Below, in pieces: positions 1,782-16,218 of a DNA stretch of 23,528 nt. The DNA is from a virus. The position numbers and the translations under genes were made by a program. The notes beneath the pieces are model-generated. The model was not told where the DNA came from. It did no database searches and saw nothing but the letters and a program-made list of their open reading frames with translations. How positions within the stretch are numbered: the first letter of the stretch is position 1; each line of letters begins with the position of its first letter. Where the stretch lies: positions 1-23,528 of IMG/VR virus record IMGVR_UViG_3300025626_000131, one strand, 5' to 3'.

Positions 1782-1958
1782 TTAATCTACCTTCTCAAAA
1801 AAGTGTGGCTCAGAAACATACCCCCGAAAATCCTCTTTATAGGGAAGCTGGTCGATACAGTTGTCACAAGTATCGCCAAGCTCTAATAGCTTTATCTTGC
1901 CGTAATAAGTTTTCCAATGGTGACCACAGGTGTCACATAAAAAATAAGCTACATACAT
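1782..1958 (-). CDS. Small zinc-ribbon-like protein (58 aa)
   Basis: A 58-residue ORF beginning MYVAYFLCDTCGHHWKTYYG. It has two CxxC knuckles (C8/C11 and C31/C34), as expected for a small zinc ribbon. The ATG at 1958 overlaps the TAA of the primase gene as TAATG, and the stop at 1782 lies just before the helicase start at 1780, so it fills the gap between two clear genes exactly. Its 3' end carries GAGAAGG, which can serve as the helicase ribosome binding site. The function is unknown; such miniproteins often bind nucleic acid or partner proteins. The coding call rests on the cysteine pattern and the tight packing. Confidence 0.8.
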   Translation of the reverse strand: MYVAYFLCDTCGHHWKTYYGKIKLLELGDTCDNCIDQLPYKEDFRGYVSEPHFFEKVD

Positions 1959-3493
1959 TAGAACGGCACCCCATCACCTTGGACCTCGATCCTCGGAACT
2001 TGAACCTCTCTGTTAAAGGCAGGCACCCACCACACACGAATCTGCTTGGCTTCCCCCCGCGTAGTCTTAAACCTTTTATGACCGTTTGCTGTTCCATCCC
2101 CGTTGAGCTCCTTTAACCGCTCTTGTATTTGTCCACGGCTATAGCTGTCGAAGCGCTGATTGCGAAGGAACTTCATTAAGGCTTCAATCTTGAAGTAGGT
2201 TAAGCCTTCTTCTTCTTCCGTGTAGGGCTTGCCAAGACTGATCTCTTCAGCGGATTGCGCTTGCACCCGCCCATCACAAAACGCCTCGAGAAGATCCATA
2301 AACTGGCCCTTGTAGGTTAGCTCTTCGGGAACCTCGATCTCACTCATGTCTTCCATCAATGCGCCAACAATGTTCTGCCAGTCAGCCATCTTCATCATTG
2401 GTGGCATCTTGTGTATCTGTTCCATACACGCCTTCTGGAAACGCTGCGGTGTCTGAAGATCATCTGTGTCCAACTCAACACGCTGTCCACCCACATCACA
2501 GAACCATACTGGAGGCTCTGACTTCACAACGCAAAGACCTGTCACATCAATATTGGAAACGTGGCTACCGATACCAAACTTCTTTGTTTTACAAAGTGAC
2601 TTGTTGCAATAAGATTTGAGAGGCTCCTGATCACAGGGGAAGCCATACTCTTTCTTCTCATGCTGCTGCTGAATCGTCACAATCTCGGACGCTGGCAATG
2701 ACGGGTTGGCAAACTTGTTGTTAATCTCTTCGAGCCTAGCCTTCCAGTTTTCTGGCTGCTCTTTCTTACAACCAACGGCTGCGGCAAACATAACTGTGTT
2801 GCGTGTACCTTCGGGTATCCCCTGTCCGAACATGCAGTTCAGACAGGGGGCCCAATCCTTAAACTCGTCGACCTGCTCACCGAATGTTAAACCAACAAAA
2901 GCATCCGGATCCACACTCCTCCTGTCAACAAGCTCAAGAAATTCCTCTAGGGACGCTGGCTCTCCGTCTTCTTTAATCGCGTAGCGGAGAGTTTGTTCCT
3001 CATCAAAGTACGGCAGGTTAATAAAGTTACCCACATCGCCACGCTCGACAAGAATCTGTTCTTGCTTTGGGAAAATCTCACAGCCGCCATAACCAAGTAC
3101 GGCAGAAATCTCTGAAGCTTTATCACGGAACTCTCCTGCACTGATCCACTTTGTAAAGAAAAAGAATATGTGTGCGCCGCCAGACTTCGAGCGGCAGGTA
3201 ACACAAGGCACCTCCATCTTACGCAGCTTTTTATCAAGCGCCTCAAGATCTAGTGGGTACTTATCAATGTCGAGGGCACCAAACTTACACTGGTTGTCCT
3301 CGTTAATTGGGATAGAGCCTACGCCATTCTTGCCCTCAAGATGATGCTTGATAAGGTCTAAGGTTAGCGGCTGCCTAACGATTCTCGACTTAGCTTTTTG
3401 CTTACCGGCTCGTCGTTCATCTGATATCTGTGTCTGTCCATGCGCTGCACTAAATCCGGTAAATGCAGCCATGAACTTTTCTGCTTGGTTCAT
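1958..3493 (-). CDS. Archaeo-eukaryotic-type primase / primase-polymerase
   Basis: A 511-residue protein whose N-terminal half carries the AEP primase signature: GALDIDKY with the metal-binding DID at residues 75-77, SKSGGAHIFFFF with the sGGAH motif at 104-108, and GCEIFPKQ at 138-144 followed by NFINLPYF. The arrangement is closest, from memory, to the AEP domain found in TOTE-type conflict systems and in phage primases. A second cysteine-rich part includes CLNC (217-220) and a cluster at C287, C296 and C301, possibly metal binding. The expected role is synthesis of primers on phage DNA. The ATG at 3493 has AAGGGG upstream. Its 3' end overlaps the zinc-ribbon start. The last codons are built from in-phase heptamer repeats (1977-2011), and the protein ends GDGVPF, resembling the tip of SSB proteins. 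Confidence 0.85.
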   Translation of the reverse strand: MNQAEKFMAAFTGFSAAHGQTQISDERRAGKQKAKSRIVRQPLTLDLIKHHLEGKNGVGSIPINEDNQCKFGALDIDKYPLDLEALDKKLRKMEVPCVTCRSKSGGAHIFFFFTKWISAGEFRDKASEISAVLGYGGCEIFPKQEQILVERGDVGNFINLPYFDEEQTLRYAIKEDGEPASLEEFLELVDRRSVDPDAFVGLTFGEQVDEFKDWAPCLNCMFGQGIPEGTRNTVMFAAAVGCKKEQPENWKARLEEINNKFANPSLPASEIVTIQQQHEKKEYGFPCDQEPLKSYCNKSLCKTKKFGIGSHVSNIDVTGLCVVKSEPPVWFCDVGGQRVELDTDDLQTPQRFQKACMEQIHKMPPMMKMADWQNIVGALMEDMSEIEVPEELTYKGQFMDLLEAFCDGRVQAQSAEEISLGKPYTEEEEGLTYFKIEALMKFLRNQRFDSYSRGQIQERLKELNGDGTANGHKRFKTTRGEAKQIRVWWVPAFNREVQVPRIEVQGDGVPF

Positions 3494-13717: not shown

Positions 13718-14027
13718 CGTTTATCTGTGCATAGATGGTGTGCCGATTTGGTGTGAGTTAAAAATAATTAAAGCCGGACGAGTTGCCCTATCAAAGTCAC
13801 AGATTGCATGGCATCTCTCGCATACCAGATGTAATGGCGTAAGTTTTTTCCTGTTACACTGCCCCTCTGAGGGTGATGTATATTTATTTGACGGCGGTTT
13901 TGCGGTCGAGTTGCAAGGATCGAGGATCGAGGATCTGCGGCCTGCGGCTCGATGGTGTGGTGATATACGATCTGCGCCCTTGGCACTGCGCGCCTGCGCC
14001 CTAGAGTCGTGGTTCGGGGCTCGATGA
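13614..14027 (+). CDS. VRR-NUC/PD-(D/E)XK-like nuclease overlapping terS
   Basis: A 137-residue protein. Residues 6-33 read RSLWTSLKQNLPKK, HFQRVENRTGEGMPDV, and the core continues CELK (E49, K51 motif), then KSQIAWHLSH and GDVYLFDG. The order E/R-N-x-x-x-x-G-x-PD, E-x-K, Q-x-x-W is that of phage VRR-NUC or resolvase-like nucleases. The ATG at 13614 with AAGGG 7 bases upstream is preferred over the ATG at 13710 because the family-typical N-terminal helix lies before it; this makes a 104-base overlap with terS. After residue 100 the frame enters heptamer repeats, so the 37-residue tail is likely repeat-derived rather than part of the fold. Confidence 0.8.
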   Translation: MPKTERSLWTSLKQNLPKKSHFQRVENRTGEGMPDVYLCIDGVPIWCELKIIKAGRVALSKSQIAWHLSHTRCNGVSFFLLHCPSEGDVYLFDGGFAVELQGSRIEDLRPAARWCGDIRSAPLALRACALESWFGAR

Positions 14028-14111
14028 CCTGCGGCCTGCGCCCTGCGCCCTCGATCCTGCGGCCTGCGGCCTGCGGCCTGCGGCCTGCGGCCTGCGGCCT
14101 GCGCCCTCGAT
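13917..14111. repeat. Heptamer repeat tract (CCTGCGG family)
   Basis: GGATCGA occurs twice in phase at 13917-13930, followed by GGATCTG, CGGCCTG and CGGCTCG. From 14028 to 14111 twelve heptamers run without a break: CCTGCGG, CCTGCGC twice, CCTCGAT, CCTGCGG six times, CCTGCGC, CCTCGAT. The second tract starts directly after the TGA of the nuclease gene. Both strands are open for long stretches here, but only because the repeat lacks stops. Confidence 0.95.
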
Positions 14112-14134
14112 CATATGATATAGGTATAAAGAAA

Positions 14135-14972: not shown

Positions 14973-15043
14973 CCTGCGGCCTGCGGCCTTGTTCCTCTTT
15001 TTTTATATACAACGGCCTGCGGCCTGCGGCCTTGTTCCTCTGT
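14973..15043. repeat. Duplicated 28-base heptamer cluster
   Basis: CCTGCGG, CCTGCGG, CCTTGTT, CCTCTTT at 14973-15000 is repeated at 15016-15043 as the same four heptamers with one base changed (CCTCTGT). The copies are 43 bases apart. The intervening and following sequences, a T-run with ATATAC and GTATATA with an A-run, are complementary, so the pair could fold. Confidence 0.9.
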
Positions 15044-15044
15044 A

Positions 15045-15089
15045 TATAAAAAAAAAGAAAGAGGATCGAGCACCGTGGCACTCGATCCT
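15045..15089 (-). terminator. Rho-independent terminator of the gene at 15097
   Basis: On the minus strand a 9-bp stem (AGGATCGAG at 15062-15070 against CTCGATCCT at 15081-15089, 10-base loop) is followed by CTTTC and nine T. It lies 7 bases after the stop at 15097. The stem sequence GGATCGAG is itself a member of the heptamer family. Confidence 0.88.
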
Positions 15090-15096
15090 TTGTTAT

Positions 15097-15330
15097 TTAT
15101 TCCACCGTTCCGGTGCGCTGCCAGTTATCGATTAGCCGGTCAACAAGCTCGTCGGTCTGCTTTCGATTGCCACCGCAATGGCCTTCGGCCAATTGATAGC
15201 AGGCACCAAGCAATTCGCTGATCTTGTGTTTGGTACACTCGAGACTGGCTGCATCGCTATCCGTCCATACGACGCCGTGAAACAAGCCCAAGTGTTCGCC
15301 GCCGTGCAGCAATAAAGAATGTGTATGCAT
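15097..15330 (-). CDS. Unknown small protein (77 aa)
   Basis: A 77-residue protein beginning MHTHSLLLHGGEHLGLFHGV, histidine-rich at the N-terminus and helical afterwards (CTKHKISELLGACYQLAEGH, then DELVDRLIDNWQRTG). AGGGGA lies 8 bases before the ATG at 15330, inside the 3' end of the upstream gene, so the two are probably translated in sequence. A strong terminator follows. The protein may bind metal through its His residues, but there is no family match I can name. Confidence 0.78.
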   Translation of the reverse strand: MHTHSLLLHGGEHLGLFHGVVWTDSDAASLECTKHKISELLGACYQLAEGHCGGNRKQTDELVDRLIDNWQRTGTVE

Positions 15331-15332
15331 AA

Positions 15333-15566
15333 TTATCCCCTATTCATATCTTGAATGTTGAACAGACAGCCAAGGATCGACCAAGGCACTCCGACGCTAG
15401 CGATCGATATCATACCGATGCCAGTGACGATGGCGAACATGTCATCGATAAACAGACAGTGATAGCCAGCCAGTCCAACGGTGCCGGTGGCGATGATCAT
15501 CATGCCCCAAACGTATGTCATACGTTTGGCGACCGTTCTTCTATGTGCAACAAATGCGTGTCTCAT
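15333..15566 (-). CDS. Small membrane protein with two predicted TM helices
   Basis: A 77-residue protein with a basic N-terminus (MRHAFVAHRRTVAKRM) and two hydrophobic segments, VWGMMIIATGTVGLAGYHCL and FAIVTGIGMISIASVGVPWS, joined by a short acidic turn (IDDM). The positive-inside rule predicts both ends in the cytoplasm. AAGGGGA precedes the ATG at 15566. It is the first gene downstream of the hammerhead ribozyme, whose cleavage would leave a short leader with this ribosome binding site exposed. Function unknown; immunity, exclusion or lysis accessory roles are possible. Confidence 0.78.
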   Translation of the reverse strand: MRHAFVAHRRTVAKRMTYVWGMMIIATGTVGLAGYHCLFIDDMFAIVTGIGMISIASVGVPWSILGCLFNIQDMNRG

Positions 15567-15590
15567 AGTATAGTCCCCTTCTATTTGGTT

Positions 15591-15642
15591 TACCGTTTCG
15601 TCCTTCTGGACTCATCAGCGGCAGCGACACTGCCGGACGGTA
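15591..15642 (-). ncRNA. Type III hammerhead ribozyme
   Basis: On the minus strand, 5' to 3': stem III strand TACCGT with cleavage base C at 15636 (GUC site); stem I CGGCAG, loop TGTCG, CTGCCG; core CTGATGA at 15612-15618; stem II GTCC, loop AGAA, GGAC; core GAA at 15597-15599; stem III strand ACGGTA at 15591-15596. All invariant positions (C3 to A9, G12 to A14, A15.1-U16.1, C15.2-G16.2, G10.1-C11.1) match. Stems of 6, 6 and 4 bp pair perfectly. Cleavage would fall between 15636 and 15635. It lies between the genes ending at 15669 and starting at 15566. Confidence 0.95.
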
Positions 15643-15663
15643 GGGGCGACCGCCGCCGCCCCT
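15642..15663 (-). other. GC-rich hairpin directly upstream of the ribozyme
   Basis: AGGGGCG (15642-15648) pairs with CGCCCCT (15657-15663) around an 8-base GC-rich loop. After ribozyme cleavage this hairpin would lie a few bases from the new 3' end of the upstream mRNA, where it could block exonucleases. Confidence 0.65.
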
Positions 15664-15668
15664 TTATG

Positions 15669-15872
15669 CTAGTCGTCTTCTTGATTCCAGACTGTCACCA
15701 GTTTGCCTTGGATCATTTCCAGATCGCCTTGGATATCTTCGATATTGGCGACTAGGTCTTCGCACCAGTGGCCGCTGTCTTGTAATACATTCTCGATAAT
15801 TTCCAATGCATGGTCTACCTTGTCATTGGCTAGCGCGACTTCGTGAAGGATGGTTTGTAATGTTCTGGTCAT
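15669..15872 (-). CDS. Small acidic helical protein (67 aa)
   Basis: A 67-residue, acidic, helical protein (MTRTLQTILHEVALANDKVD, then DLVANIEDIQGDLEMIQGKL), probably a coiled-coil hairpin. AAGGGGA precedes the ATG at 15872. Its stop is followed within a few bases by the GC-rich hairpin and the ribozyme, so its mRNA would acquire a ribozyme-made 3' end. No family recognised. Confidence 0.76.
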   Translation of the reverse strand: MTRTLQTILHEVALANDKVDHALEIIENVLQDSGHWCEDLVANIEDIQGDLEMIQGKLVTVWNQEDD

Positions 15873-15884
15873 TGTTCAGTCCCC

Positions 15885-16157
15885 TTATGCTTGGTTTGAG
15901 ATGATAGTTTTGCCGGACTTGATCGTATAGGTTCCGGCTTCGAGCTTCATGCGGCGGATGTTTGACTTGCCAGCGTCGTGCATTTCCTTGGCGATCGAGT
16001 AATCAATATATGAGATTACGTTTGGATGATCGTCGGTCAAGCGATCATCAGCAATGATCTGGCCGTAGGCTTGACGGGTTGAACCGTCAAGCTTGGTGAA
16101 TGTTGCAGTAAACAGGCGTCCGCCTAATTGCTCGATGATTTGGTTTCTTAAAGTCAT
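15885..16157 (-). CDS. WYL_2 (Sm-like SH3 beta-barrel) type small protein
   Basis: A 90-residue protein from the ATG at 16157, beginning MTLRNQIIEQLGGRLFTATF. The pattern FTATFTKLDGSTRQAYGQII, followed by a strand YIDYSIAKEM and a late RRMKLEAGTYTIKSGKTI, is like the small phage proteins grouped as WYL_2 (DUF2693), predicted SH3-like barrels. AAGGGGA lies upstream of this ATG; the reading from 16199 was rejected for lack of a ribosome binding site and because it would include the promoter -10. It is the first gene of the ribozyme-containing operon. Confidence 0.76.
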   Translation of the reverse strand: MTLRNQIIEQLGGRLFTATFTKLDGSTRQAYGQIIADDRLTDDHPNVISYIDYSIAKEMHDAGKSNIRRMKLEAGTYTIKSGKTIISNQA

Positions 16158-16188
16158 AACGAATTCCCCTTCGTTGTTGTGATGACAT

Positions 16189-16218
16189 ATTATAATCACA
16201 GATCATCCCATAAGACAA
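16189..16218 (-). promoter_or_regulatory. Leftward promoter of the ribozyme operon
   Basis: On the minus strand TTGTCT (16213-16218) and a perfect TATAAT (16189-16194) are separated by 18 bases. The spacer begins with TATGGGAT. The start of the first gene is at 16157, giving a leader of about 25-30 bases. This is the best promoter-like sequence in the window. Confidence 0.65.

Follow-up and report, generated by a model that had tools for sequence, protein, structure and literature searches.

Hammerhead ribozymes of all types have been described in the intergenic regions of phages and prophages (PMC3088659, PMC6155905), where tandem, intercistronic copies are active in vitro and in E. coli and where, in haloviruses HF1 and HF2, a transcript 5' end lies no more than 3 nucleotides from the hammerhead cut (PMC3088659). 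Phage hammerheads have been known for more than ten years and have no accepted role, a question that the literature itself calls open (PMC6155905, PMC10085705). A hammerhead and a hairpin are combined in a bacterial 5' leader in RiboJ, which is cut constitutively and increases mRNA stability; RiboJ is, however, an engineered part, to which a 23-nt hairpin was added for folding of the ribozyme and which processes one leader (PMC7536230).

The window examined here is a 23,528-base IMG/VR virus record (IMGVR_UViG_3300025626_000131) that contains terminase, portal and replication genes, of which the terminase and portal genes support a phage origin. Its minus strand carries a type III hammerhead at 15591-15642 that has the same core, stems, cleavage site and intercistronic placement as the known phage and prophage type III hammerheads (RF00008; Perreault et al. 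2011), and this ribozyme is a new member of that known class. Directly 5' of it stands a GC-rich hairpin (15643-15662) that may be a new feature: the texts of PMC3088659 and PMC6155905 mention no abutting hairpin, no tie to the stop codon and no contrast with type I, and a prior mention may exist elsewhere. The composite of hairpin and ribozyme, together with the positional rule that it follows, looks like an undescribed variant. A RiboJ-like insulator has its hammerhead close to the ribosome-binding site and its hairpin 3' of the ribozyme, whereas in the window the hairpin lies on the 5' side and is part of the upstream message, a comparison of function and not of homology. The composite also resembles a Rho-independent terminator, in that a stable GC hairpin follows a stop codon by a few nucleotides and would become the 3' end of the mRNA, but it has no U-tract, its 3' end is predicted to arise by self-cleavage, and transcription would continue past it.

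Identity and gene context of the ribozyme

When the ribozyme is mapped base by base, stem III (UACCGU/ACGGUA, 15642-15637 with 15596-15591) is open, with no closing loop, stem I (CGGCAG/CUGCCG) is closed by the loop UGUCG and stem II (GUCC/GGAC) by the loop AGAA. The core consists of CUGAUGA at 15618-15612 and GAA at 15599-15597, the latter followed by A15.1 (GAAA, 15599-15596), and the GUC cleavage triplet at 15638-15636, which ends in C17 (15636), fits the NUH requirement before stem I. The earlier note had claimed a complete type III hammerhead on the minus strand, with all invariant bases and three stems, and a predicted cut between 15636 and 15635 at a canonical GUC site; the map bears out both statements, the first of which is further backed by the RF00008 match, the compensatory changes and the conservation described below.

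Searched against the full set of Rfam families, the window as a whole returned an end-to-end match to RF00008 (44.7 bits, E 5.7e-7). This score lies 3.8 bits below the curated cut-off of 48.5 bits, which is a reporting threshold and not a defining feature of the hammerhead, and the relatives all score between 32 and 47 bits. Because 44.7 bits falls short of that cut-off, the default search of the window at the gathering threshold reported nothing and the ribozyme is visible in the E-value search only. The covariance-model check suggested in the earlier note gives a full-length match. A strict hammerhead descriptor found no match in any of 300 dinucleotide-shuffled windows, and the local fold of the ribozyme has hammerhead topology (-21.3 kcal/mol, z -2.3).

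As had been reported for this locus, the ribozyme lies inside a 102-base gap (15567-15668) between two short genes of a leftward phage operon. The upstream gene (15669-15872, minus strand, 67 aa) has homologues in relatives L133, L135, L137, L153, L212 and L213, and the downstream gene (15333-15566, minus strand, 77 aa), the product of which has two hydrophobic stretches, has 21 relatives in viral contigs; protein-family searches matched neither of these flanking genes to a known family. The end of the ribozyme is separated from the ATG of the downstream gene by 24 nt. By pattern scan, the leftward unit begins at a promoter-like TTGTCT-18-TATAAT (16218-16189), and its first gene (15885-16199, minus strand) is listed as 104 aa from a GTG, with a weak match to PHROG 2267. 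The true start of this gene is likely to lie inside the listed ORF, since the promoter-like site overlaps the 5' end of that ORF. The downstream mRNA would also carry a second 77-aa gene (15097-15330, minus strand; homologues in L133, L134, L137 and L138), and its predicted 3' end is a terminator-like hairpin with a T-rich tail (15062-15089, minus strand), found by pattern scan and folding at -19.4 kcal/mol (z -5.7).

Two other features of the window were recorded. GC-rich stretches in which a CCTGCGG unit is directly repeated occur at two sites, 14014-14121 and 14973-15055, the second of which lies between genes for 241-aa and 77-aa proteins and has a long inverted repeat (14992-15011/15041-15060). 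A 511-aa protein encoded at 1958-3493 on the minus strand shows weak similarity to CRISPR-associated primase-polymerase (NF040561), and is likely to be a phage primase of the PrimPol type.

Conservation among related phages

Searching viral contigs with the downstream 77-aa gene (15333-15566) yielded 21 relatives, 19 of which have a hammerhead at the same place; one further copy is lost to a contig end and one relative (L127) has none. The terminase recovered 80 relatives, and among the 50 of these records that were searched RF00008 was found in 11, to which the descriptor adds L212 (about 12 of 50) and others outside the 50-record set. Alignment of 26 distinct copies revealed changes on both sides in 12 of the 16 pairs (41 cells), a level reached in none of 500 shuffles, and 96.6% of cells are paired, whereas slid controls collapse. 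The core is intact in 25 of the 26 family copies; apart from position 7, where variation is tolerated, the one departure is A9C, in L130 and L131. The compensatory pair changes and the near-invariant core show selection for the folded RNA. The two A9C copies (L130 2950 and L131 2950; core CUGAAGC) sit at the same place as the other copies, are intact in other respects and could serve as a natural control; judged from the altered core, A9C should weaken cutting.

The element is dispensable, because it is patchy among the terminase relatives and is missing from one close relative with the same neighbors: L056 and L127 share both neighboring genes, and the element is present in the former and cleanly absent from the latter. 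In relatives that lack the hammerhead, no other Rfam ribozyme was seen in its stead by a search at the gathering threshold, which also misses hammerheads like that of the window. Within this phage family the genes upstream of the element fall into 9 unrelated families and those downstream into 7, and the spacing hardly varies. The placement in this gene context had originally been put forward as novel, a claim that fails in that form now that the flanking genes prove interchangeable and given that intergenic hammerheads of phages and prophages had already been described (PMC3088659, PMC6155905). What survives of that first interpretation is the type III hammerhead itself, with its GUC site and its place between genes of a leftward phage operon; it had overlooked the abutting hairpin.

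The hairpin abutting stem III

The hairpin of the window runs from 15662 to 15643 on the minus strand as 8 base pairs, GGGGCGGC-GGCG-GUCGCCCC, and stops exactly where stem III begins on its 5' side; a possible ninth pair (A15663-U15642) would have to use U15642, which is also a base of that stem. It folds at -19.1 kcal/mol (z -3.1), begins 6 nt 3' of the stop codon of the 67-aa gene and is followed by UACCGUCC, which is not a U-tract of the terminator type. The hairpins of the relatives have other loops (UUCG, GAAA, AUCC) and other stems, and they likewise end at, or a few bases away from, the base of stem III.

Using hammerhead patterns that are blind to the surroundings of the ribozyme, we searched viral contigs, typed the copies by topology, and scored as abutting any hairpin of at least 6 pairs that ends no more than 3 nt from the base of the open stem. 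Over all patterns, such a hairpin accompanies 102 of 126 type III copies versus 4 of 96 type I copies, against a background of about 4-5% at positions further upstream and 3-6% in shuffles. The first pattern, which does not select for type, gave 50 of 62 for type III and 2 of 71 for type I (Fisher p 1.7e-22, a value that assumes independent copies after removal of near-duplicates and is optimistic because of shared phage ancestry). A second scan, for which the stem II sequence was changed, found the hairpin in 12 of 25 new type III copies and in none of 17 type I copies (background 6.5%), or in 15 of the 25 type III copies (60%) when a wider window with a background of 12-15% was allowed. The second-scan rate of 48% is below the at least 70% that had been predicted in advance; the association between hairpin and type III is real, though weaker than predicted in that scan. 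Among type III copies in bacterial genome bins, 1 of 6 has the hairpin.

The position of the hairpin follows the upstream gene, its first base lying a median of 7 nt 3' of the upstream stop codon (n=89), and the U-tract is absent class-wide, with no more than 3 T in the 8 nt after the hairpin in 84 of 90 copies. Genes downstream of 86 hairpin-bearing copies belong to 54 protein families, and the start codon mostly follows 19-30 nt after the end of the ribozyme. Hairpins 3' of the ribozyme are not enriched in either type (6/115; background 6.4%). Type I copies overlap the upstream stop codon or lie within 4 nt of it in 47 of 70 cases, an overlap from which it follows that their folding may await the terminating ribosome; examples of type I loci near a stop codon are L053, L058, L083 and L097.

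Multiple copies per phage are common to the described phage hammerheads and to the hairpin-type III elements. Three of the latter occur in single phage stretches at L010, L028, L061, L071, L093, L110, L177, L188 and L202, where the elements precede successive genes and the hairpin is often identical, GUGUCUUCAAAGACAC.

Proposed transcript processing and competing explanations

The ends produced by a hammerhead cut are a 2',3'-cyclic phosphate and a 5'-hydroxyl, and hairpins at the 3' end of an RNA hinder 3'-5' exonucleases. PNPase requires a 3'-OH end (PMC3014915), an end that the hammerhead cut does not produce. Together with the hairpin that both types place at the stop codon, these properties suggest a terminator-like end that is made without termination. 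We consider it reasonably probable, with ample room for doubt, that the composite acts as a gene-independent constitutive processing site that would give the upstream mRNA a hairpin-capped 3' end as transcription continues. RNA polymerase would read through hairpin and hammerhead, and the ribozyme, which is presumed to be active in the cell in this copy as well, would then cut between 15636 and 15635. The upstream mRNA, with the 104-aa and 67-aa genes, would be left with the GC hairpin 6-7 nt from a new 3' end that bears a 2',3'-cyclic phosphate, and the downstream mRNA, with the two 77-aa genes, would carry a 5'-hydroxyl, start directly in the stem I hairpin and end in the terminator-like hairpin. 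The main benefit that we propose is a defined, exonuclease-resistant upstream 3' end with downstream transcription unbroken, from which a longer life of the upstream mRNA might be expected. Against this reading weigh the lower hairpin rate of the second scan, the patchy distribution of the element, the rarity of the hairpin in bacterial genome bins, the A9C copies and the alternative fold of the gap that is described below.

This processing scheme offers a reading of the difference between the two types. A type III cut would leave the upstream RNA ending single-stranded, in one half of stem III, and the added hairpin would provide the structured end, whereas after a type I cut the upstream RNA would end in hairpins of the ribozyme itself, stems II and III, and these copies sit on the stop codon with no hairpin added. 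In both types the upstream message would thus end in a hairpin a short way past its stop codon. We extend the argument tentatively, with somewhat less than even confidence, to the suggestion that self-cleaving ribozymes commonly serve in phages as transcription-independent terminators, type III by means of the added hairpin and type I by means of stem III over the stop. If true, this would supply a general function for phage hammerheads; if protected ends are indeed made, neither proteins nor terminators would be needed to divide a long transcript into messages of separate stability, and synthetic operons would gain a ready-made part. The regularity with which hairpin and ribozyme stand at stop codons, whatever the genes, turns this into a testable question, namely whether phage hammerheads produce protected mRNA ends.

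The main rival is a 5'-end insulator, a natural counterpart of RiboJ that would give the downstream mRNA a uniform leader and in which the hairpin aids ribozyme folding or stacks on stem III. The narrow spacing between ribozyme and start codon would suit such a device, as would a downstream product that opens directly with stem I, and RiboJ parts do standardize 5' leaders and raise mRNA stability (PMC7536230). Insulation of folding would, however, be expected of type I as well, which has the hairpin at near-background frequency in the first-pattern scan and whose downstream products are hairpin-capped in only 1 of 83 cases, and the hairpin keeps its position relative to the upstream stop codon. 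Both points, the difference from type I and the link to the stop codon, argue against insulation as the sole reason for the composite, and we regard it as unlikely, if still deserving of serious attention. A 5' cap formed by stem I would be a further property, confined to type III; copies of that type are also shaped to cap the downstream 5' end, so that the benefit may lie there.

Considerably less probable is that the element marks a recombination boundary, a conserved stretch between exchangeable genes that persists mainly by allowing homologous module swaps. Genes on both flanks have been exchanged around it and the L056/L127 pair is a precise presence and absence, but selection acts on pairing and not on letters, as the compensated pairs and the differing hairpin stems and loops attest, and an intact catalytic core is not needed for such a role. 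We give marginally less credence still to the hairpin being an independent signal (a weak terminator or attenuator, an RNase III site or a protein-binding operator) that adjoins the ribozyme by chance: a stable GC hairpin directly after a stop codon is terminator-like, yet the U-tract is missing, stems and loops vary between phages, the hairpin is placed so that its 3' end meets the base of the ribozyme, and it is missing from type I copies. An inactive relic or a ligand-controlled hammerhead in place of a constitutive processing site is very improbable, for although thermodynamic folding of the entire gap favors an alternative structure, with the cut site occluded by pairing to the ribosome-binding region, and the A9C variant exists in L130 and L131, the core is kept in all other family copies, the stems carry compensatory changes and no conserved aptamer-like domain lies beside the ribozyme. 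A pre-cleavage switch based on that alternative fold, with the GGAC of the ribosome-binding region hidden by the GUCC of the cut site, was considered and rejected, as relatives with other leaders cannot form the pairing.

Among named isolates, the closest by the large terminase are the Pelagibacter phages HTVC027P and HTVC023P (62% and 55% identity), which likewise have small genes between the terminase subunits; their genomes gave no hammerhead match, and a nucleotide search found no cultured phage with a hairpin-type III element. Rhizobium and Cellulophaga phages that were found by similarity proved not to be carriers of the composite, their hammerheads being of type I. Apparent type I hammerheads that are not annotated lie in two cultured phages, Rhizobium phage vB_RleA_TRX32-1 (L287, 2395-2450) and Cellulophaga phage phi18:3 (L145, 1500-1545), and the phi18:3 copy lies upstream of small genes leading to ardA, as reported for other hammerheads.
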